This document shows, piece after piece, positions 1-25,754 of a DNA stretch of 25,772 nt. Under the pieces are notes generated by a model, which saw nothing but the letters and a program-made list of their open reading frames with translations, searched no databases and was not told the origin of the DNA. The stretch covers positions 1 to 25,772 of the IMG/VR virus record IMGVR_UViG_3300028490_000026; one strand, given 5' to 3'. Both the position numbers and the translations under genes were made by a program. This DNA is from a virus. Within the stretch, counting starts at the first letter, position 1. Each line of letters starts with the position of its first letter.

Positions 1-3000
1 CAATTTGTTGAGTCCTCTACAGTGTAAGACTCACCCATCTTAACCATGTGTCTAGCAAAGAACTTATCTGTCTGTATGTTCATAGCAATGTTCTCTATAA
101 ATGCTCTACCATTAGAACCTACAAATTCAGTGAAGTAGAACTTAGACCCCTTCACTATACTGTTGATAAATGTCTTACCCATAGAATGCTTAGCTTTGAT
201 ACTATTTGTTCTAGTCTTGTTATTCTCTCTGAATGAAGGTTGTAGTTCATCGTCTTTAACAATACCAAGTATGTCTTCTTGTTGACTTTCATTAAAGGAA
301 TTAAAGAAATCTAACAGTTCATGGTTTACTGTATATCCAGTTTGCTCTCTCTTATTAATAGCATCAGTCTGTTCTTGAGGTGCAAAGAATCCTTTACGAC
401 CTTTTAGTTCATGCTCCTTACTCGTAACATTGGGAGCTACTTCAGGAGGAACAAAAGAATCTATACCATTACGTGAGGTTACTTCTGTAACCTTATCAAG
501 GTTCTCAATATTAAGTTTAACAAATGCTTTCTTCTTACCAGAGCCAACAGATACCATAGTCTCTTCAACTAATCCCTGCTCGTTCATTGCATGTAGATAC
601 AGAATCCCTATAGACCTAGCCATCATACCTTGATAAGCTACGTCATCAATTCCATCTACATTAATACTCAGTGACTTCATAACACCGTTACCGATAGCAA
701 GAATGACAGACTCTCTGTCACCACCACCTTCTTGAATGGCTCTAGCACCATCAGCATCAACTCCATAAGCTCTTATGATATCCTCAGAACTAACTGCTCC
801 AAACTGTGTCTGGAATGCTTGAAATGCATTAGTGCCTTCAGTAAATAGCTTCAGTGAAGTATCTGCATTAAATACAACCTTACCATTAGCTCTACCATCA
901 CTTAGAAGTACCCATGAATTGTTGAAGTAATACTTAGCAAGTCTACTTGAGTAATCAGCAAGTGACTCTTCCTTACCTTGTCTTGGTATCCTTACTGTGT
1001 AGTCATTTAGTGCTATATGAAAGTTCTTGAACAATTCAAGTACTGTACGTTCAATGTCACCTCTCTTCTCAGGAGACAAGAACACTTTAGAACCAGTATT
1101 ATTTAGTTCACTCTTATCTACAGTAACAAGCTCCTCAGTAACACCAGGCAAAGGTTCAACATCAGTAGGAGTAGTGAAATTAACAACGGTAGTTTCCTGA
1201 GTGCCATAAGACTTATCTGCAATAATCTCAGTCAATGCTCTTGCTTGGTTATTGTCAGTTTTAGCAAACATATCAGTAAGCTTCTTACCTGCTGATTTGA
1301 TACGTAGTTCATCTATCAGTTCTGGATTAGCTTTAGCCCATGTTTCCCATAGACCAGAGTAAGTTCCCCAATAATCAAAGTTAGAATCTTTAGCTGGTTT
1401 ACCTTTTCCAGTTCCTTTGAGACTTTGATACTCTTGCTCAATAGTTTTACCATTAGGTAGCTTGGCATTTAAAGCAGAAAATCTCTTGTCACCTTTGGTG
1501 GAGACTTCATATGTCTCACTGTTATCCTTAGTCTCATAGAGTTCTAAGCCCATAGCCTTAGCAGCTTCATCATTAACCCTAGTCTCATACTCTCCTATGG
1601 TTTCATTCTTTCGTGGTCCTAGTGTATTGTGAGCAGCTTCATGTTGCAATACAAAAGTCTTAAACTCTTTATCACTCTTGAATGCATCCTCTTTAATCGG
1701 ACTTGCTTTAGAACCATCTTGTTGTTCCTTGGGATTAGTCCAAGCTTTCTCTTCATACTTAGATTTCCACAGTGCTTTATCTGAACTGATGGTTATCTTC
1801 TGAGAAGACCCATCTGGATTCCTAGTGTGCTTAGCCAGTAATGGTTTACCATTCTTCCCAGTAAGCTCTTCGGAAAATACATCAATCTTCTCCCCATTAA
1901 CCATCTTGATACTACCTATCTTCTTAGAAGTAGGAGCAGGAGCAGTCTCAACTACATCGTCTTCAACTACAAGTGTAGAGGGAGCTTCTGTATTAGAGAA
2001 TGTTTCACCTGTAGATGTAGTTGTATCATCCTCGATGGTTACAATATCTGCATCCAAAGTACTAGGAGCTTTAGTGTCTACCTTCGATTCTGACTGTGTT
2101 TCTTCTTTAACAGGACTCGTTGTATCAGTTTCAGTAGAACTCTGCTCAGATTGGCTTGTAGAGGTATCCCTACTATCAAGCTCATCAGTAAGTACCTGTA
2201 CTTCTGCCTGTAGCTTTGTATACAAGTTATCTTGCTTAGGAGTTCTCTCTGTACTTTCTAAAGCATCAACCTTATCTTGCTTCGTTGCAATATTCTGTGC
2301 AAGAGACTCTTCACTCATCTTGTCAGACTTCTTCTTGAAGGTACTCATGAAGTTCTTGTAGATGTAGTCCACAGGATTCTCTTTGATTTCCTTCTCTTGA
2401 GCTTCAAGTTGAGCTATCTCTTTCTTCATTGTAGATATAGTCTTATCAGGATCTTTTAGAGCAGAAGGATCAGCTTCATAACTAGCAAGTCTTTCTTTCT
2501 TCTGTTCAAGCTTAGTACCAACTTGTTGTTCAAATGAACTGTCACTGTTTGCTTCAAGTGTAGATGTAACTTCAGTATCAGAACCATCAAATACAATCTC
2601 GTTATCTGGAGTAAGGTCTTCCTTCTCTGCCTTCTTAACCTTAGATTTCTTAGACATCTTTTCAACGTATGGTTCTGCTACATCTTTAGCTTTACGTACA
2701 CCCTTACCAGTTATGGATGCTGTACCTTTAGCAATATCCATAAGAGTACCAGGAGTAGAGATAGCTGCTTGAGTTCCTCCACCACCTGCTGCTCCTAGTA
2801 TAGTTGCATCTTTCATTTCCTTTTGAACCTTAGCATTAGGTACAGGATTCTCTCCAGGTTGCATCTTCTCTGTATAGGTCTGTGCTCCCTCAGCTAATCC
2901 TTCAGCACCAGAAGCAGCAACAACACCTACTGGCATTCTAAGTATCTTAGACTTGGTTAATCCAGTGAACATCTTGCCAGTAAGAATACCTGCATCAATC

Positions 3001-4244
3001 TTGTTGAGTGCAGTGTATCCCATAGCATAAGGTAAGTTCTTAACTAGGTCTTTAAAGTTAGCATCTTTACCATTCTTCTCAACTGCCATGTCAGCAGACT
3101 TCATGTAGATAAATCCTGCCATCATTGGAGCATTAGCCATAGAGACACCAACTTCAACTAGACCATCAGTAAGACCTTTCAATCCTTCCTGTACTATATT
3201 CGCATAGTTCTTGTTATAGAATGCAGCATCTATCTTGTTGATACCGTAATCTTCTCTAACCTGGTCATTCATGAAGCCATCATTCTGTACAAAGTTCTCT
3301 ACGTTATTAGCAATCTCTTTCCAGTAATCAGCACCTTCCATGTAACTAGCTCTTGCACCTTCATTAGCCTTCTTAAATGCTCCTTCAGGAGAGATGTCAG
3401 CAATACCCTGACTCGTCATACCTGCAGCAGTGTTAACCATTCCTAGCATGTTATAGAGACCCTTGTTAGCAGAAGCTAGTAAGTCTACAGGGTTGAGTGG
3501 ATTAAAACCAGACTCAGACATGTTCTCCCAGTCTTCTTTTCCAGAGTACCGTGACTTAGCAAGTAGCCTGTCAAATTTAACTATCTCTTTAGGGTCAGCT
3601 CCAGGTTCATTAGCAACCCTGAACTGGTTGGCTAACATCTGTCTCTCATATCCTCTACGTTTAGTAAATTCATCACCTGACTCAGTATTGTCAGCATAGA
3701 GTACAGCATTACCACTATCTAGTAATGCATTAGCTACAGGCATAGAGCCTTTACCTTGTTCATCAAATGCTACTATGTCACCTAGTTCCCTTGGTGCTCT
3801 ACTATAGTCAGCTCTATCAACTTCACCTTTTAACGATACACCAATCTCTTCTTGAGAGATTAGAGTATTAAGGAATGTCCTCTTAGCTTCCTGTGTAGCC
3901 ATAGAGCCTACTTGTGCGTCTAAACCAGCCTTAGCCTTCTTAGCTAGACTAGCGTTCTTTAAGGGGTCTTCTAGTGCATCTATACCAGTGAACCTAATGT
4001 TACCCTGTAGACCAAGTGCTTTACCCTTGATTGTATCTGCATCAATAAATAGATTGTCTGTAAAGCTTGAGAGTTCATTGTAGGCATCCATCTTAGACTC
4101 TGATGAGATTTGTGGATTCCACAATGTATCTAGTAGTTGTTTATTTCTATCCATACCTGAGATGGATAGATATGCAGGAGCACTTAGTTGTGACGCAGAC
4201 TGAGATACCGTTGGTAAATCACCTGTTATAAAATCTTCATTCAT
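1..4244 (-). CDS. Giant virion RNA polymerase (N4 gp50-like), N-terminal 1414 codons, cut by window edge
   Basis: An open frame starts at ATG 4244 after an AAAGGA site and runs off the left end without a stop. In N4 the equivalent protein (about 3500 aa) is packaged in the capsid, injected, and transcribes early genes. Visible order: helical N-terminal region (residues 1-530), a coiled-coil Lys/Glu stretch (about 560-680), a Ser/Thr/Glu linker (about 690-770), a zincin-like domain with H868-E-A-A-H872 and possible third ligand E893, and a second phage-type domain (about 915-1011). The start of the polymerase domain follows. The motif G1376-S-N-G-R1380 sits where N4 has its T/DxxGR motif, about 420 residues after the N4 minimal polymerase begins near residue 998, so the spacing agrees well. 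The surrounding sequence also resembles N4 vRNAP as I remember it. Catalytic motifs A, B and C would lie outside the window. The family call is inference from motif, length and position in the structural cluster. Confidence 0.85.
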   Translation of the reverse strand, partial: MNEDFITGDLPTVSQSASQLSAPAYLSISGMDRNKQLLDTLWNPQISSESKMDAYNELSSFTDNLFIDADTIKGKALGLQGNIRFTGIDALEDPLKNASLAKKAKAGLDAQVGSMATQEAKRTFLNTLISQEEIGVSLKGEVDRADYSRAPRELGDIVAFDEQGKGSMPVANALLDSGNAVLYADNTESGDEFTKRRGYERQMLANQFRVANEPGADPKEIVKFDRLLAKSRYSGKEDWENMSESGFNPLNPVDLLASANKGLYNMLGMVNTAAGMTSQGIADISPEGAFKKANEGARASYMEGADYWKEIANNVENFVQNDGFMNDQVREDYGINKIDAAFYNKNYANIVQEGLKGLTDGLVEVGVSMANAPMMAGFIYMKSADMAVEKNGKDANFKDLVKNLPYAMGYTALNKIDAGILTGKMFTGLTKSKILRMPVGVVAASGAEGLAEGAQTYTEKMQPGENPVPNAKVQKEMKDATILGAAGGGGTQAAISTPGTLMDIAKGTASITGKGVRKAKDVAEPYVEKMSKKSKVKKAEKEDLTPDNEIVFDGSDTEVTSTLEANSDSSFEQQVGTKLEQKKERLASYEADPSALKDPDKTISTMKKEIAQLEAQEKEIKENPVDYIYKNFMSTFKKKSDKMSEESLAQNIATKQDKVDALESTERTPKQDNLYTKLQAEVQVLTDELDSRDTSTSQSEQSSTETDTTSPVKEETQSESKVDTKAPSTLDADIVTIEDDTTTSTGETFSNTEAPSTLVVEDDVVETAPAPTSKKIGSIKMVNGEKIDVFSEELTGKNGKPLLAKHTRNPDGSSQKITISSDKALWKSKYEEKAWTNPKEQQDGSKASPIKEDAFKSDKEFKTFVLQHEAAHNTLGPRKNETIGEYETRVNDEAAKAMGLELYETKDNSETYEVSTKGDKRFSALNAKLPNGKTIEQEYQSLKGTGKGKPAKDSNFDYWGTYSGLWETWAKANPELIDELRIKSAGKKLTDMFAKTDNNQARALTEIIADKSYGTQETTVVNFTTPTDVEPLPGVTEELVTVDKSELNNTGSKVFLSPEKRGDIERTVLELFKNFHIALNDYTVRIPRQGKEESLADYSSRLAKYYFNNSWVLLSDGRANGKVVFNADTSLKLFTEGTNAFQAFQTQFGAVSSEDIIRAYGVDADGARAIQEGGGDRESVILAIGNGVMKSLSINVDGIDDVAYQGMMARSIGILYLHAMNEQGLVEETMVSVGSGKKKAFVKLNIENLDKVTEVTSRNGIDSFVPPEVAPNVTSKEHELKGRKGFFAPQEQTDAINKREQTGYTVNHELLDFFNSFNESQQEDILGIVKDDELQPSFRENNKTRTNSIKAKHSMGKTFINSIVKGSKFYFTEFVGSNGRAFIENIAMNIQTDKFFARHMVKMGESYTVEDSTN

Positions 4245-4254
4245 TATGTTCCTT

Positions 4255-5757
4255 TTAGTTGTTACCGAACCTGCTTGTAAGTTCTTTCTCGAACAATGCA
4301 TTGTCCTCCATAAATAATCCATCTCTCATAAAATCTGCAATATCATCTATATTCTTTCTACTTGCAGGAGGATTCTTTACCTTGTACTTCTTCCAGGCAT
4401 TAGCCATATATGGAGAGAACTTCTTATTCTTTTTTAGTAGGTCAAATACATTCTTAGTAAGACTTTCATTATCTGCCATTCCAAACCAACCAGCATCAAA
4501 AGGAGTAGATGCTCCTCCATCGTCTGTCTGTTCCATAGCTGGTTCAAGTAGAGTCCATAACTCAGGTACTCTACCTAGCAATGACCTTAGATTCTCATTG
4601 ACAACAGAAGAGTCATCTGAAGCTAAAGCATTATCCATCTCTTTATTGTTAGCATCAAAAGATAATTGAGCTTGTATACCTTTATCTCTCTCTGCTTTAA
4701 TCTCTTTCATCTTGTCGTTGATGACTGTCATTGCACCATCGGATACAGATTTTGGGAGATTATTACTCTTGAAATAATCAGCAAGTACCTCAGCTACCAT
4801 TTCTGGTTTAGTGTTCTTCTCCTTTATATACTTCATGCCCATTTCGACTATTCCACTAATACCAGTTTTACCAAATAGTTTCTCTTGTTGCTTATCTAAC
4901 TCTTTTATCATAGCTGTTTGTTTAGCCCTACCACTATCTGAACTCATACGCTTAGACATGAGGTCTTGTTTCCTTGCCTCTATAACACCTGACTTTTTTA
5001 TATCCTGAAGTAATGGACTCTCAGTATTGTTATACTTAGGACTTTGAGCACTTACCACTGGAGTGTTAGTTGCCTTGGTAGCTACAGACCCAGGAGGAGT
5101 CAGTGGTGGAATACCATTTAACATTAGATTATCATCATTCTCTCTCTTGACTTCACTAAGTTTTAATTGATTGGCTTCATTAGATATTCTTGCATTCTCA
5201 AGACTAACCATAGGTTTAATCATGCCTGATGCATACTTATTCCCAGAAGCCATTATGTTCATGATTGCATCGAATCTATCTTTAGGTGTTGCATAATTAC
5301 CTTCAGCAAAATCAGCCATTATCTTCTTACCAGCAACCTCATCAGCCTGTGTATCGTTGTATTTAGTTTCATTCAACACTTGTGCTCTGTTAGAAATATC
5401 GATACGTCTATTGGAAAGTTTATTACTGTCCTTATGTTGCTTAATGCTCTCATTAAGATTAGCACCTTGCATAGCAATCCTAGCTGCTGCTCTAGTTTCC
5501 TGAGACTCTAGCTGTCTATCTCTAAACTGTTGCTGTACTCCGAACTGAAATTGATTCTGGATTAATTGTTGGGTCTGTAGTTGTTCCTGTACCTTACGAT
5601 GTTCCTCTGTCTTTAATAGAGTCTGCATCTTCATAACAAGGTCACTAGATGAGTCCATAGACTTCATCACACCTTGCATCATACTGTTAGCGACACTTGA
5701 TGTATTGGCTGCTGCATTAGCACCTTTGGACATTGTATCCATGAATGGGTTTTGCAT
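4255..5757 (-). CDS. Glutamine-rich coiled-coil virion protein, probably ejected with vRNAP (500 aa)
   Basis: Function is not recognised by sequence. The first 130 residues are rich in Gln, Met and Asn and look helical or coiled-coil, with many QxxQ spacings. A Pro/Thr/Ser linker lies near residues 215-245, followed by a charged helical region, and the C-terminus has many aromatic and lysine residues. There is no signal peptide or membrane segment. The ATG at 5757 follows GGAG with 5-base spacing; the stop is 10 bases before the vRNAP start, so the two are surely co-transcribed. In N4-like phages the genes beside vRNAP encode internal or structural virion proteins, so a role in the capsid interior or in ejection is the best inference. 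It resembles the long helical ejection proteins of podoviruses in composition only. Confidence 0.7.
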   Translation of the reverse strand: MQNPFMDTMSKGANAAANTSSVANSMMQGVMKSMDSSSDLVMKMQTLLKTEEHRKVQEQLQTQQLIQNQFQFGVQQQFRDRQLESQETRAAARIAMQGANLNESIKQHKDSNKLSNRRIDISNRAQVLNETKYNDTQADEVAGKKIMADFAEGNYATPKDRFDAIMNIMASGNKYASGMIKPMVSLENARISNEANQLKLSEVKRENDDNLMLNGIPPLTPPGSVATKATNTPVVSAQSPKYNNTESPLLQDIKKSGVIEARKQDLMSKRMSSDSGRAKQTAMIKELDKQQEKLFGKTGISGIVEMGMKYIKEKNTKPEMVAEVLADYFKSNNLPKSVSDGAMTVINDKMKEIKAERDKGIQAQLSFDANNKEMDNALASDDSSVVNENLRSLLGRVPELWTLLEPAMEQTDDGGASTPFDAGWFGMADNESLTKNVFDLLKKNKKFSPYMANAWKKYKVKNPPASRKNIDDIADFMRDGLFMEDNALFEKELTSRFGNN

Positions 5758-5766
5758 AATATCTCC

Positions 5767-6351
5767 TTACGATAATCTAGGTGCTGTAGATATAGCTGCT
5801 GCAGTCTCACTAGGATTATTACGTTCTTGCTCAACGTAGTTACCACCATTAGCGTATCCTGCTGTTAAGTTCTGTCTTACTGCAGCAATCCTACCTAGTT
5901 CATTCTTTGTTAAGTTCCACTGTTCACCTGCTCTGCTGTTTTGATCTCTAGCAAACCCTAACATCTCATCTCTATATTGATTGCCCTTGTATAGATTCCA
6001 CATGTTCATGCCAGTCATACCGATATCCATGATACCATTAACAGTACCCATAGTCTGTCCAAAGTTAAAGTCACCACCAACTCCTAGTGGACCTGTAGTT
6101 TCTGGTGTACCTCCAGCTATTTGACCAGCATCATAATCATAGAACCCATCAGTAGCTCCAGATTTCATACTAGGACCTTCTAGTGTAGGACCATCATAAG
6201 CTCCTTGAGCAGTTCCAAATAGTGATGAACTGTTTATCTGAGCTAGTCCTGGTCTATTAACACTGTAGCTTGGTTGGTTGTATGTATACCTGATAGGTTG
6301 AGTTAAATTTTGACCTCTAGTAGTTCCACCCTGTGCAAGTTGAGTTGACAT
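5767..6351 (-). CDS. Internal virion protein-like, T7 gp14-type organisation (194 aa)
   Basis: The N-terminal 100 residues are low-complexity, rich in Gly, Thr, Gln and Pro. The C-terminal half has a Met/Gly-rich helix (GIMDIGMTGMNMWNLYKGNQ) followed by a charged amphipathic helix with many Arg, Asn and Gln residues. This pattern of a small-residue hydrophobic helix leading into an Asn/Gln/Arg helix is seen in small podovirus internal virion proteins that enter the cell envelope during ejection. It is the first gene after the 6352-6467 gap, so the first gene of the vRNAP block, with AAAGGA six bases before ATG 6351. It ends 9 bases before the 500-aa gene. The match is by architecture, not by a confident family match. 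Confidence 0.6.
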   Translation of the reverse strand: MSTQLAQGGTTRGQNLTQPIRYTYNQPSYSVNRPGLAQINSSSLFGTAQGAYDGPTLEGPSMKSGATDGFYDYDAGQIAGGTPETTGPLGVGGDFNFGQTMGTVNGIMDIGMTGMNMWNLYKGNQYRDEMLGFARDQNSRAGEQWNLTKNELGRIAAVRQNLTAGYANGGNYVEQERNNPSETAAAISTAPRLS

Positions 6352-6374
6352 AAATAATCCTTTGTAGATTGAAT

Positions 6375-6410
6375 TTAAATCATTATATCATATAAGCTTG
6401 AGGATGGAAT
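6375..6410 (-). promoter_or_regulatory. Extended -10 promoter in front of the vRNAP block
   Basis: On the minus strand TGATATAAT (6390-6382) matches the sigma-70 extended -10 consensus TGnTATAAT perfectly. The best -35 candidate at 17-base spacing is ATTCCA (6410-6405), only 3 of 6 matches. Transcription would start near 6375, about 24 bases before the ATG at 6351. N4 late promoters are read by host sigma-70 polymerase with a phage activator, which would fit a weak -35. This is the only promoter candidate I see in a non-coding gap. Confidence 0.55.
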
Positions 6411-6428
6411 TGTAGGGGAGTTTAGAAT

Positions 6429-6454
6429 CTACAGGACACATTGTGTGCCTGTAG
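6429..6454 (-). promoter_or_regulatory. Imperfect inverted repeat (hairpin) in the only large gap
   Basis: The arms CTACAGG and CCTGTAG are perfectly complementary. Inside them CACA pairs with TGTG, leaving one bulged A and a 3-base loop. It lies after the stop at 6468 and upstream of the extended -10 promoter. No T-run follows on either strand, so it is not a canonical intrinsic terminator. It could be a factor-dependent terminator, an RNA-processing site or a protein-binding operator. Short CTAAAC/CCCTACA-like sequences flank both sides. Confidence 0.5.
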
Positions 6455-6467
6455 GGTTTAGAGGGGT

Positions 6468-6797
6468 TTAAACAGGTGTTACGATGTACTTAGCAACGAA
6501 GCTAAGTTTCTTTCCACCTTGCTCTGGATTTTGCTGAATTAGTTTTAACATTTGGTTAGCCTTATTCTGGTCAACTGAATGCTTCTCCATGATATCACTA
6601 ACGGTAACTCTCTTATCCATCTGGATACCTTCCTTCTGGTGTCTGAGAGTGTTTACTTGAGCATCTGATAGAAAGGTAGGTGTATCAAACAACACCTTCC
6701 TACCATTAGTCCAAGCAAATCTTTCCTTCATAGTTTCAGTACTTCTAGCTATGACGATATACTTCTGTGCTTTATTAGGTTTCTCTTTAGTAGCCAT
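6468..6797 (-). CDS. Small structural-region protein, unknown function (109 aa)
   Basis: No family is recognised. The protein is basic and soluble, with a Lys-rich N-terminus, a central segment RFAWTNGRKVLFDTPTFLSD, and a helical region around residues 60-95 with evenly spaced Lys and Gln. It ends in a short beta-like stretch. The ATG at 6797 follows AAGGG, and the gap from the previous stop is 9 bases. It is the last gene of the capsid block before the hairpin and promoter gap. In N4 the genes between the capsid protein and the vRNAP group encode small virion proteins, so a minor capsid or connector role is possible but unproven. Confidence 0.7.
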   Translation of the reverse strand: MATKEKPNKAQKYIVIARSTETMKERFAWTNGRKVLFDTPTFLSDAQVNTLRHQKEGIQMDKRVTVSDIMEKHSVDQNKANQMLKLIQQNPEQGGKKLSFVAKYIVTPV

Positions 6798-6806
6798 AAT
6801 ATTCCC

Positions 6807-7121
6807 TTACTTCTTTGCTTTCTTAGTTACTGTTTTACCAACAACAACTACACCACCAGTAGACCTAGCAGAAGCATCTCTAGTATACATACCAACACCG
6901 ATAGCACCATCAACAGGTTTAACTGTTACTGACTTGCCCATACGGACTTCAACTACTGTATCTGCATCTAGTACTTTTGTAGTCTTGTTACCAAGAACCT
7001 CCTCGATGATACTACCTACGAGTACCACTGAACCAGACTCATTAGTGATAGTAGTATCTTCTACTACTTCACTAATAACTGTGAGTGCTGGATTTGCTGA
7101 AGTTAATCTAAACTCTGCCAT
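6807..7121 (-). CDS. Small beta-rich protein following capsid gene, possible head decoration (104 aa)
   Basis: The sequence is dominated by Val, Thr, Gly and Ile in alternating patterns that suggest a small beta domain. There is a run of valines at residues 91-94 and a Lys-rich C-terminus (VTKKAKK). No signal peptide or transmembrane segment is clear. AAGGA lies six bases before ATG 7121. It is the first gene after the major capsid gene, a position often held by head decoration or stabilisation proteins, but the family is not recognised and the role is inference. A late structural or head-completion role is equally possible. Confidence 0.65.
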   Translation of the reverse strand: MAEFRLTSANPALTVISEVVEDTTITNESGSVVLVGSIIEEVLGNKTTKVLDADTVVEVRMGKSVTVKPVDGAIGVGMYTRDASARSTGGVVVVGKTVTKKAKK

Positions 7122-7148
7122 GTTATTTCCTTTTGTATATTTAATTCA

Positions 7149-7164
7149 CAACTACTAGTAGTTG
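7149..7164 (-). promoter_or_regulatory. Perfect 16-base palindrome over the capsid gene stop codon
   Basis: CAACTACTAGTAGTTG is its own reverse complement. As RNA it would form a 6-bp stem with a CUAG loop, and the capsid TAG stop (7157-7155) lies within it. No U-run follows, so it is unlikely to be an intrinsic terminator. A role in mRNA 3' end protection or processing of the highly expressed capsid message is possible; chance is also possible because part of it encodes the capsid C-terminus. Confidence 0.35.
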
Positions 7165-13546: not shown

Positions 13547-13946
13547 ATTCTGCTTGTATATGAAAAGGTTTAAATCCAGTCATACGAAGAAACCTCTTGG
13601 CTTCATTGTACCACTGAGCTACTTCCACAAACAATACATCTCTGCACTCTATTGTCTTGTCTGATAGCTTTCTCATAGTCTTTGTATACTCAACGATATT
13701 ACTGCTACGTAAATCAACAGTAGTAAAGTAAATTAGGTTTCCATCTCTTTGTTCCATAATGGCACATATAACAGCTTCTTTATCCTCGATAAGGTAAAAC
13801 CTTGCCCAGTCTGCATTAGCCTTGTCAAATGCATCGTAGGGAGACTTGTAGCCTAGATCCCACGATTCTTTGATGTCCTGGTTCTGATACCGTAGATTCT
13901 TAACGGTAGCAAAAAACTCCTCAAATTCTACAGTGTTTACAATCAT
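13512..13946 (-). CDS. GNAT-fold-like protein, probably not catalytic (144 aa)
   Basis: The C-terminal half shows the GNAT acetyltransferase pattern: an Ile/Tyr-rich strand (NLIYFTTVD), a helix, then VLFVEVAQWYNEAKRFL and MTGFKPF (about residues 104-132), where an N-A-L-GF motif is typical. The R/QxxGxG/A acetyl-CoA loop expected after the first strand is not visible, so the enzyme site is likely lost or very divergent. Small GNAT-like proteins occur in the structural regions of several podoviruses, and T7 gp13 is one comparison worth making. ATG 13946 overlaps the upstream TGA as ATGA, which is better than the TTG six bases earlier. Confidence 0.6.
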   Translation of the reverse strand: MIVNTVEFEEFFATVKNLRYQNQDIKESWDLGYKSPYDAFDKANADWARFYLIEDKEAVICAIMEQRDGNLIYFTTVDLRSSNIVEYTKTMRKLSDKTIECRDVLFVEVAQWYNEAKRFLRMTGFKPFHIQAEYEVWYKDGKQN

Positions 13947-15205
13947 GTACAAGGCACTCCAACTTCTCCAGCTAATGAACAGTATAGTTGATCCATCTTC
14001 TGACTATTGAGTGAACTAGGTATTCCTGAAACTGATAACAATCCAGATGAGAACATCATAGCAAATGCATTATATTGTGCATCAAACAACTTCTGTTTCT
14101 TATTGTCATCGAATCCTAATATCTGTCTATCAGTAAGTCTTACCTGAGCTTCTTTAAGTAGTGCATCTGCTTTAGCAAGTTTCACTTTCTCTTCTGCTAT
14201 TTCAAGTTCCTTTCTCTTGATAGCGAGTTCTTCGATAGCGATAAGAACCTTCTGTTCTTCTATCTCTACTTGCTTCTCTTTGATGATCTTCTCAGAAGGT
14301 CTTATGAATGAAGTAACATATTCCTGGTCTGTTGCCTGTGCTTCAGTTAATCCAGTCTTAGCTACTATACTATCCTTATCAGCCAATTTAACATCTTTCT
14401 CAAGAGGTCTGATATAAGTTGTAACATAGTCCTGATCAATCTTCTGTGAATCTTGTAGTTCAGTTCTACTCTCAACATTGTCAGCATCTTTAACCAACTT
14501 AGCAAGTTCTGCAGGTCTAATCTCAGTAGTCACATAGTTCTGATCTGTTTCCTGTGCTCCGATAAGATCTGACTTAGCAGTAGTCATTACATTGTTAAGG
14601 TCTATCCCATCTTTCTCTAGTGGTCTCATTTGATCTGTTACATATGTCTGGTCAGTAGTCTTAGCAGTAATACCTTCTCTATTAGCATCTGTAAGTAACT
14701 TATCTGCATTCATCTTGACTAGCTCTTGAGGTCTAAGCTGTGAAGTAACCCACTCTTGATCTTCAGTCTTGGATTTAACAAGATCAGTCTGGTCTTCAAT
14801 GTGACCAATCTCTGCAACTAGTTTCAGGTTTTCTTTTGGTCTTAACTCTGTAGTTACGTATGTTTGGTCTGCTGTTTTGGCAGATATCAAAGTAGTCTGT
14901 GATTCACACTGAGATATGTTACATGATATCTGACTCTTCTCTAATGGTCTAATCTCTCCAGTAACAAAAAGTTGATCATCTATCTTGGCTTGTTTAAGTT
15001 CATTGTCCTTCACCATCCCTGCCATCTGTTCACCCTTAATAGGTGACTCAAATGCTAACCTAAGAGATTCAGACATTAAGTTGTTGAAGACATCAGAGTA
15101 TTCAGTACCCTTTATTCTTCCACTTTCAAACTGAGTATCTAGTTCAGACTTGATTTGTCCTCCAAGTATCTTGAAGTTAATCACTACGTTTTTCATATCA
15201 TACAT
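13943..15205 (-). CDS. 36-residue tandem-repeat protein with coiled-coil C-terminus (420 aa)
   Basis: Six repeats of exactly 36 residues occupy residues 77-292, with a partial seventh at 293-306. Each opens with DQ-[LTEND]-[FYW]-VT followed by xx-[ILM]-RP-x-E, and ends in a Lys/Thr/Ala-rich segment. After the repeats, residues 300-370 form a clear Glu/Lys/Leu coiled coil, and the C-terminal 50 residues (FDAQYNAFAMMFSSGLLSVS onward) are hydrophobic and Ser-rich. A trimeric or fibrous virion part is likely, but no family is named with confidence. The start is ATG 15205, eight bases after AAGGA, overlapping the upstream stop by 8 bases; the longer frame from 15250 lacks this support. Confidence 0.8.
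   Translation of the reverse strand: MYDMKNVVINFKILGGQIKSELDTQFESGRIKGTEYSDVFNNLMSESLRLAFESPIKGEQMAGMVKDNELKQAKIDDQLFVTGEIRPLEKSQISCNISQCESQTTLISAKTADQTYVTTELRPKENLKLVAEIGHIEDQTDLVKSKTEDQEWVTSQLRPQELVKMNADKLLTDANREGITAKTTDQTYVTDQMRPLEKDGIDLNNVMTTAKSDLIGAQETDQNYVTTEIRPAELAKLVKDADNVESRTELQDSQKIDQDYVTTYIRPLEKDVKLADKDSIVAKTGLTEAQATDQEYVTSFIRPSEKIIKEKQVEIEEQKVLIAIEELAIKRKELEIAEEKVKLAKADALLKEAQVRLTDRQILGFDDNKKQKLFDAQYNAFAMMFSSGLLSVSGIPSSLNSQKMDQLYCSLAGEVGVPCT
14330..14977 (-). repeat. Six tandem 108-base coding repeats (36 residues each)
   Basis: The units encode residues 77-112, 113-148, 149-184, 185-220, 221-256 and 257-292 of the repeat protein, with no length variation. The DQ-VT and RP-E positions are conserved, while the third positions of codons and the second half of each unit have diverged. 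The conservation is thus at protein level and old, not a recent DNA expansion. Confidence 0.9.
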
Positions 15206-16334
15206 TATGCATTTCCTTTTTAGTATATGGTTGAGCTGGAAACTCACCAATTATTCTTCTCTCTCTAAAGTAGTTGTAGGTATCAATCCATCCCTTATCA
15301 ACATTGAGTGTAATACCAAGATCCTTCAACATTGTATCAGACATTTTAGATACAAGTCTAAATTCAATACTTGCCTTATTCTTCACTCCTCCACATGTTG
15401 ATTCTAGTCTAACTTCCCCTCTGCCACCATTACCTGCCGTAGATGTCAACCCTGAAGTACCACCACCACCTGCACCAACACCACCATTTCCTGCTATTGA
15501 TTCATTGTTTCCTCCTTTTCCACCGTTACCAAACCCTGCTTGTCCTCCCCAAAGAGCAGAAGAACCAAAGAATGATAGACCATCTGTAGAGGTTCCCCAA
15601 CACCCACTTCTAGTAGCACCATTACCTTGATAGGCTGAACCTGCTCCTCCTGCAGCAGTAGCCAATGTATCAAATGAAGATGCTGTTCCTGCTCCTGCTG
15701 TACCTAAGTATAGTGCCCCAAGTCCACCTACTCCTACAGTAATGTAGTAAGCGACTTCAGGAGTTACAGTATAGGTATTAGAAACTTCACTACCTCCTGC
15801 TCCTCCATCATCAGAACCTACACCACTATCAAAACCACCACCACCACCACCACCAATCATACATACATCTACGCTGAGTATACCACTTGTGTTTTCCCAC
15901 TCATGGTCTCCTGGTACATCAAATATTACAGACAATGGAACACAGCATAACACGCAGGTTATATCTGCAATAATATTGGATTCCTTTTCACCAGCAGAGT
16001 TCCATGCTCTAATATAGAATGACTCTACTTCACCACCTGGACAATTATGAGTTACTGGTGATGTCTGTGCTGGATAAAGTAGAGTACCATCACTAGAGTG
16101 TATATCATATTGTGGTGCAGGATATCCATCAGTGTCATTCCATTGAAAGGTAAGCTTTTCACAAGTACCACTACTGACAGTTAATGATATTGGTACAGTA
16201 GGAGGACAAGCTCTCCTCCACACTTCAACATCATTAGCCATAACAACTTCTACGTTAGCATATGAACCATCAGTACCCTTAACCTTTATCTTGTTACAGG
16301 TTGATATATCTACCCCATTTACAACTACTGGCAT
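15198..16334 (-). CDS. Glycine-rich tail adhesin (378 aa)
   Basis: The N-terminal 40 residues (NGVDI…NDVEVW) resemble the start of the 552-aa neighbour and may be an attachment module. A fibronectin-III-like, Cys-containing domain follows (about 44-125). Residues 155-312 form a glycine-rich domain that opens with seven glycines and has the usual TYTVTPEVAYYITVGVGG element before alternating Gly runs. Such domains are found at receptor-binding tips of phage fibres, where Gly runs can pack as polyglycine-II helices. The last 65 residues are a different, charged segment. ATG 16334 lies 2 bases after the upstream stop. Host-receptor binding is inference from domain type and location. Confidence 0.8.
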   Translation of the reverse strand: MPVVVNGVDISTCNKIKVKGTDGSYANVEVVMANDVEVWRRACPPTVPISLTVSSGTCEKLTFQWNDTDGYPAPQYDIHSSDGTLLYPAQTSPVTHNCPGGEVESFYIRAWNSAGEKESNIIADITCVLCCVPLSVIFDVPGDHEWENTSGILSVDVCMIGGGGGGGFDSGVGSDDGGAGGSEVSNTYTVTPEVAYYITVGVGGLGALYLGTAGAGTASSFDTLATAAGGAGSAYQGNGATRSGCWGTSTDGLSFFGSSALWGGQAGFGNGGKGGNNESIAGNGGVGAGGGGTSGLTSTAGNGGRGEVRLESTCGGVKNKASIEFRLVSKMSDTMLKDLGITLNVDKGWIDTYNYFRERRIIGEFPAQPYTKKEMHNV

Positions 16335-25143: not shown

Positions 25144-25215
25144 TTATTTTTTAGTAATTAAATCTCTTACCTTCTTAACTAATTTCTTAGCCTTATCTTT
25201 GCATGGACAACCCAT
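25144..25215 (-). CDS. Micro-gene: 23-residue cationic peptide with CPC motif
   Basis: ATG 25215 shares its A with the TAA stop of the lipoprotein gene (TAATG), and the frame ends at TAA 25146-25144, nine bases before the small-terminase start. It exactly fills the gap between two well-supported genes. The peptide starts MGCPCKDKAKKLV and is rich in Lys with amphipathic spacing. Only a weak purine-rich ribosome site precedes it, so translation would depend on termination-reinitiation. It has no recognised family. The one-base overlap and gap-filling support it; its length makes chance possible. Confidence 0.5.
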   Translation of the reverse strand: MGCPCKDKAKKLVKKVRDLITKK

Positions 25216-25754
25216 TACTCTTCTTCGTCTTCAATCTCAACTACTGGTATCTCACAGAGTTCGGTCTCATCGTTCCATTCAGTATCTTCACCACATGGAT
25301 GAACTTCCTCTGGAGCAACAATACAAGTGTTAGTCTCATTATCTTCTATAGTACCCTCTCCACATGATAGTGGTGGTAACACTACACAAGTATTACAATC
25401 AGTAACCTTGTATCCTTCAGGACACTTACCATCTACAGGCACAATAGGTTCAGTTACATTCTCATCTACTATAATACAAGGTGTAACTACAGTAAATTTT
25501 AAATCCATTCCAAACTCACTAAGTAACTCTTCTCCGTTATAAGTAACATTGCTGTCACCCAATGAGAATGCAGTTAAATCGAATGGAACACCACACTCCA
25601 ATGAAAGGTTATCATCAATGACGATAGGCTCTCCTGGCTCAACTACAATCCTAGTATCACTGTTGTTACAACCAGCAAGTCCTAGTGCCAATAGACCAGC
25701 AAAACATACTGCTACAGACAACTCTGCAATAACTGTTTTAAAATCTTGCTTCAT
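25215..25754 (-). CDS. Cysteine-rich acidic lipoprotein (179 aa)
   Basis: A signal peptide with a hydrophobic stretch (residues 7-28) ends in lipobox L26-A-G-C29, so processing by signal peptidase II and lipid attachment at C29 are predicted. N30 at +2 favours outer-membrane sorting. The mature part has nine further cysteines. Three similar blocks (C111-C123, C131-C144 and C154-C167) each have C-[GP]-E-[GD] at the start and an acidic stretch before a closing Cys. The end is acidic. No family is recognised. Possible roles are superinfection exclusion, envelope modification or outer spanin. It is the first gene in the window, with AAGGAG six bases before its ATG. Confidence 0.8.
   Translation of the reverse strand: MKQDFKTVIAELSVAVCFAGLLALGLAGCNNSDTRIVVEPGEPIVIDDNLSLECGVPFDLTAFSLGDSNVTYNGEELLSEFGMDLKFTVVTPCIIVDENVTEPIVPVDGKCPEGYKVTDCNTCVVLPPLSCGEGTIEDNETNTCIVAPEEVHPCGEDTEWNDETELCEIPVVEIEDEEE

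Follow-up and report, generated by a model that had tools for sequence, protein, structure and literature searches.

Genes and domains at the locus

The stretch of DNA analysed here (hereafter the window) is a 25,772-base virus fragment, at the start of which a minus-strand open reading frame of 1440 aa (3..4322) lies open. The codon of M27 (window 4244) is the better start of this ORF, since it comes directly after the stop codon of the upstream gene (Table 1). Residues are numbered here along the whole ORF; the original prediction had counted from M27, so that its H868, E869, H872 and E893 are ORF residues 894, 895, 898 and 919. Residues 1046-1432 match phrog_2206, a 'virion RNA polymerase' family (E 1.4e-23), as well as a profile of the polymerase domains of 15 Schitovirus virion RNA polymerases (vRNAPs; E 1.3e-18). 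On these vRNAP profile matches, and because the window also encodes a portal, a major head protein, a terminase and a gp57-like protein, the record is that of a divergent N4-type phage. Profile comparison of the N-terminal arm (ORF 27-560) with the N-terminal domains (NTDs) of other vRNAPs returned no significant similarity.

Upstream of the vRNAP gene, the order and sizes of the genes agree with those of N4 gp51 and gp52, followed by head genes. Neither protein significantly matches a family; for the 500-aa protein no family match was obtained, and its likeness to gp51 is one of position. A gp53-sized gene is absent between the protein at the gp52 position and the major head protein (window 6351-7155), where two proteins of about 105 aa are encoded.

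Table 1. Features of the vRNAP gene and its upstream neighbours in the window.
Feature	Position	Strand	Basis or remark
N4-type virion RNA polymerase gene, 5' part, from M27	3..4244	-	C-terminal part beyond the record
T7-like RNA polymerase domain, start (ORF 1046-1440)	3..1187	-	Profile matches; catalytic palm and C-terminal region beyond the window
phrog_9995 domain, NADAR-like (ORF 938-1037)	1212..1511	-	phrog_9995, E 1.9e-26
Zincin module (ORF 799-925): four strands, helix, HExxH helix, Glu helix	1548..1928	-	Family A3, model, viral fold matches
E919 (E893 from M27), variable column	1566..1568	-	Family alignment
E913 (E887 from M27), likely third zinc ligand, next helix (YExxxN)	1584..1586	-	Invariant, 23/23
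HEAAH: H894, E895, H898, predicted zinc ligands and general base	1629..1643	-	Invariant, 23/23
Linker: low-complexity, acidic, Ser/Thr-rich, coiled (ORF 561-798)	1929..2642	-	Sequence
N-terminal arm (ORF 27-560)	2643..4244	-	Position only
500-aa protein at the position of N4 gp51 (ejection protein)	4255..5757	-	Gene order versus N4
194-aa protein at the position of N4 gp52	5767..6351	-	Gene order; weak phrog_2646 match, E 0.03

A family of small zincin modules

The HExxH motif reported in the original prediction is found where it was described (window 1643-1629, minus strand), and all the motifs quoted with it are present, namely SSDKALWKSKYEEKAWTNP (from residue 846), FKTFVLQHEAAH (887-898) and NDEAAKAMG (917-925). 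HEAAH is the sole HExxH among the 1440 residues of the ORF, for which composition predicts a count of 0.006. As a single query, the window segment retrieved no relatives by tblastn or from curated profiles, nor did a close relative emerge when the vRNAP gene or the module was used in DNA and single-sequence searches; alignment-based scans were successful. Two relatives were drawn from giant ORFs sharing the phrog_9995 domain that follows the module, and the resulting three-sequence alignment recovered 29 loci, from which a family of 23 distinct sequences was assembled (A3; the window and 22 other hosts).

Across these 23 sequences, which come from independent contigs, there is no variation at H894, E895, H898, Y912, E913 or A920, and 22 of them have N917. 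Since the HExxH is invariant in so many homologous modules, the segment is, on its alignment, beyond chance a zinc-peptidase-like module of a phage family, and the 'EEKAW ... HExxH' pattern that had been mentioned for other phage proteins proves to be a real one. In its spacing, with 14 residues between HExxH and Glu and three between Glu and Asn, the module is like small gluzincins, and E913 is the likely third zinc ligand. E919, the E893 proposed for this role originally, is ruled out, as its column holds E, A, N, R, M or V in relatives; conservation thus upholds the HExxH of the original prediction and moves its third ligand to E887 in the same count.

An AlphaFold2 model based on the A3 alignment (pLDDT 88.8, pTM 0.81) has a zincin-type topology, in which the HExxH lies on one helix (86-102 of the model) and the conserved Glu on another (111-126). 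The core of four strands and helices is the one given for the MPTases of polyvalent proteins (PMC5512222). A search of predicted structures from viruses ranked giant phage proteins first (E 6.6e-5, prob 1.00); most of the weaker matches that bear a name are zincins, of lethal-factor-like, SprT, IrrE or matrixin type. In the PDB the best match to the model fell below significance, low-ranked lethal-factor matches being set aside as noise, and sequence comparison with solved peptidases gave nothing significant. DUF4344, a 'putative metallopeptidase' family, weakly matches 9 of the 23 members (best E 5.4e-4); with DUF4344, SprT and IrrE small zincins the module has a minimal zincin topology in common, and the similarity is weak. 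The segment is therefore modelled as a small zincin metallopeptidase with an HExxH and, on the helix that follows, a conserved Glu; it would bind zinc and would be active as a peptidase. The zinc-peptidase-like domain put forward originally is in this way borne out by the family, the confident topology and the viral zincin matches, the PDB search adding no significant match.

The module was not found in bacterial genomes by a genome-collection scan with one narrow pattern, and given the use of a single such pattern it is only provisionally a phage-specific one. In a tree of the modules, the window sequence sits on a long branch in a poorly resolved region, its position beside the copies from crAss-like phages having no strong support.

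Comparison with the zincins of N4-type polymerases

Zincins have already been published in N4-like polymerases and in 'polyvalent' injected proteins. The vRNAP of N4 (gp50) carries an HELVH at residue 2228, beyond its polymerase domain, in a zincin named the C1 domain in a cryo-EM study (PMC12633501), and an HExxH follows the polymerase in all 15 Schitovirus vRNAPs surveyed. The C1 MPTase of Schitoviridae (PMC5512222; PMC12633501) is thus likewise an HExxH zincin of an N4-type vRNAP, but it lies after the polymerase, whereas the window module lies before it, with the N-terminal arm on one side and the T7-like polymerase on the other, and is of another family. When aligned with hhalign, the profile of the N4-type C1 zincin and the module reached a probability of 4.5%, over just 14 columns around the HExxH; homology to the C1 zincin was looked for without success. 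The suspicion voiced originally, that the site differs from the C-terminal HExxH of N4, was therefore justified (see also PMC12633501).

Conservation within Schitovirus vRNAPs, which the original prediction had put forward as a check, was not found: none of the 15 surveyed matches the present zincin family or phrog_9995, and only Roseovarius Plymouth podovirus 1 has an HExxH before its polymerase (HEMAH 1291; L119:4687-15969), which does not belong to this family. The differences from published N4-type zincins lie in the family, its position upstream of the polymerase and its phrog_9995 neighbour. In N4 vRNAP, too, NTD and RNA polymerase are joined by a low-complexity linker, and the arm on its own inserts into membrane nanodiscs (PMC12633501).

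The same module in crAss-like RNA polymerases

Twelve of the 22 other hosts are virion RNA polymerases of crAss-like phages (L087, L090, L091, L094-L096, L098 and L102-L106). By blastp they align clearly to gp66 of phi14:2, including its DFDID at 1361-1365 (D1361), a position where L087 has DFDVD; a phmmer comparison of gp66 with the module hosts returned no match. Most of these catalytic subunits carry the module at their C-terminal end or close to it, and the copies are 37-51% identical to that of the window over 81 columns. Two more hosts (L088 and L113) match phi14:2 g065, the RNA-polymerase-associated neighbour protein, and have the module in the N-terminal part of this partner. Phi14:2 g065 itself (L158:9999-13569) has a remote HEIMH weakly similar to the module profile, the only such site in phi14:2. 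The g066 and g065 annotations in the phi14:2 record are based on proteomics, and RNA polymerase proteins of the crassvirus crAss001 are virion cargo (PMC10172136).

Crass-like vRNAPs of the gp66 type and their gp65 partners, which are expected in the virion, hence carry the same zincin module as the window protein, but around unrelated polymerase cores, with a DFDID multisubunit-type active site in the former and a T7-like domain in the latter. The location also differs: the crAss-like module is C-terminal in the catalytic subunit or part of the partner, and the window module sits between arm and polymerase. Given these 12 polymerase and two partner hosts, one protease module is, as far as homology can tell, common to two unrelated types of presumably injected polymerases. 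No mention of a zincin in crassvirus RNA polymerases was found in the literature covered, to which the original description of phi14:2 did not belong.

All further hosts are phage proteins of giant or medium size, and a polymerase signature sought in four giant ones (L107, L109, L110 and L115) was not found. The make-up of the window protein recalls the polyvalent proteins of Iyer et al. (2017), which are likewise giant and multidomain and combine effector-like domains with a zincin as their hub. The window ORF joins an RNA polymerase, a zincin and phrog_9995 and in this combination of unrelated enzymatic domains fits the description of a polyvalent protein; it matched no known LPD and differs from polyvalent proteins by its phrog_9995 domain. 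In one relative (L008), LPD23 adjoins the zincin module. L008 (L008:2-7963) and L009 (L009:3-9695) are giant proteins with both the zincin and phrog_9995, far apart and in opposite orders, and L008 additionally has a DUF6782-like second zincin.

The adjoining phrog_9995 domain

Both this domain and the link to crAss-like polymerases had escaped the original prediction, which overall is supported in part. The window copy is 43-67% identical to its relatives. The domain forms a protein of its own (about 125 aa) in jumbo phages of the phiKZ type and, within early regions, in some Schitoviruses; elsewhere it is part of giant proteins, among them an internal virion protein whose copy is 70% identical to that of the window. 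The latter protein (L007:2361-8228) is T7 gp16-like, has an HELLH of its own and, by eye, a SLOG-like segment before phrog_9995. In phiKZ, the domain forms an open frame of 126 codons (L005:1962-2339, phiKZ 79864-80241), where merely the 38-aa 'PHIKZ082.1' is annotated; several relatives bear no annotation there.

A model of the domain (pLDDT 88.5), predicted from an alignment (A4) from which all rows of annotated records were left out, has as its best PDB fold match E. coli YbiA (prob 0.63, TM 0.59, E 1.1), the other PDB matches listed having a prob of at most 0.08. YbiA is a NADAR N-glycosidase. Among phrog_9995 members, K45 and D93, on the last strand, are invariant and the Glu of the TIE motif, E38, is at least 90% conserved; these are plausible counterparts, by presumed equivalence of position, of the catalytic residues E88, K95 and D171 of DarT1-linked NADAR (PMC11543638). 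With YbiA as its best fold match, an E..YQ..K motif and an invariant last-strand Asp, phrog_9995 resembles NADAR domains such as YbiA, DarT1-associated NADAR and T4 gp30.3, but it is shorter (about 100 aa) and comes without a Pfam or significant profile match. At E<=1, PF08719 (NADAR) is not among the Pfam families matched by the 63 members, and hhalign profile comparisons with NADAR gave nothing significant. No Pfam family could be assigned, matches to ribosomal proteins and coagulase being set aside as noise. The domain is probably a divergent NADAR ADP-ribose glycosidase, which is called NADAR-like here, and not filed as a member, since the profile tests against NADAR were not significant.

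Fusions of phrog_9995 with SLOG domains also occur, in the order DUF4326 - phrog_9995 - YAcAr SLOG (L136:5656-6759 and L026:4656-5759) or phrog_9995 - cpYpsA SLOG (L140:5818-7392). They possibly represent an ADP-ribose-signal cassette, and a combination of SLOG and NADAR has been published for phage NADARs (PMC9503650). The pairing of phrog_9995 with the zincin may be a loose one, as L008 and L009 are the only phrog_9995 hosts found with both modules.

Possible roles of the zincin

The zincin and the NADAR-like domain can be viewed as a cassette, an insert that would separate the N-terminal arm from the polymerase domain. If N4 and crAss phages are a guide, the protein would be delivered into the cell with the genome. 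Once inside, the zincin would cut the giant ejected polypeptide, or partners ejected with it, at domain borders, and this cleavage would free the polymerase (here together with the NADAR-like domain) from an envelope-bound arm. Across hosts the module sits in linkers or at protein ends, and processing after ejection is the simplest role because the protease is placed at polypeptide borders of tail-threaded proteins; we give this reading a probability of about one half. Self-processing by zincins was predicted for polyvalent proteins by Iyer et al., and cleavage of P1 DdrB has been reported (PMC5512222). Counting against processing, N4 vRNAP is packaged unprocessed (PMC5512222) and degradation of the full-length protein is absent (PMC12633501), albeit with a zincin of another family.

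The next candidate, about half as probable as processing after ejection, is a host-directed effector, for which the polymerase would be a mere carrier and which would cut one or more host proteins, for instance a defence or transcription factor. Zincins of polyvalent proteins and toxin systems can hit host targets (PMC5512222), the adjoining NADAR-like domain hints at a counter-defence cassette and the family extends to the four giant proteins in which no polymerase signature was detected. Yet the conserved link with RNA polymerase subunits of two unrelated types better fits a polymerase-linked job, and an effector would require a common target across phages of presumably very different hosts.

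Two further explanations appear unlikely, and to a similar degree. The zincin could be a maturation protease that works in the procapsid and trims the polymerase or head proteins ahead of packaging or in its course, as is suggested by the zincin-bearing DdrB of P1, reportedly processed before packaging (PMC5512222); but N4 vRNAP is packaged whole (PMC5512222) and crassvirus RNA polymerase proteins were detected as large cargo (PMC10172136). Alternatively, the fold might be kept for structure or for a non-peptidase reaction, whether metal-dependent or inactive. An HExxH by itself is no proof of a peptidase, the authors of the cryo-EM study pointing out that it is likewise a mark of alphaKG-HExxH enzymes with links to radical SAM domains (PMC12633501), and no solved peptidase was significantly matched; but both His, the general-base Glu and the third Glu stay strictly invariant even in very diverged hosts, which speaks against this explanation. 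A chance HExxH, to which the low-complexity linker preceding the module might have given rise, is refuted by the 23-member family with its invariant sites, the expected count of 0.006 and the confident fold.

For the release and activation of giant injected polymerases after tail passage, the reuse of a single protease module by two unrelated virion polymerases, at linkers or ends, provides a specific processing hypothesis, testable in culturable systems. A bolder and rather doubtful extension of processing after ejection is that N4/T7-like single-subunit and crAss-like multisubunit-type polymerases independently acquired the zincin, tail-threaded giants needing a co-delivered protease for release or maturation, and that the NADAR-like glycosidase of the window protein clears ADP-ribose at entry. 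If so, ADP-ribose would be removed the moment the phage enters, phage DNA that DarT has attacked being one possible substrate. Likewise singled out by the analysis, as a likely ADP-ribose-related counter-defence enzyme, is the uncharacterised phrog_9995, common in jumbo phages and giant injected proteins.

Two other minus-strand genes of the window can be mentioned. A 435-aa protein (13943-15250) consists of repeated units around 'TDQ-YVT-x-RP-E' and is probably a tail or fibre component. Directly upstream of the terminase genes, a small lipoprotein-like ORF (25215-25754) has a signal sequence ending in LALGLAGC and a C-terminal half rich in cysteine.
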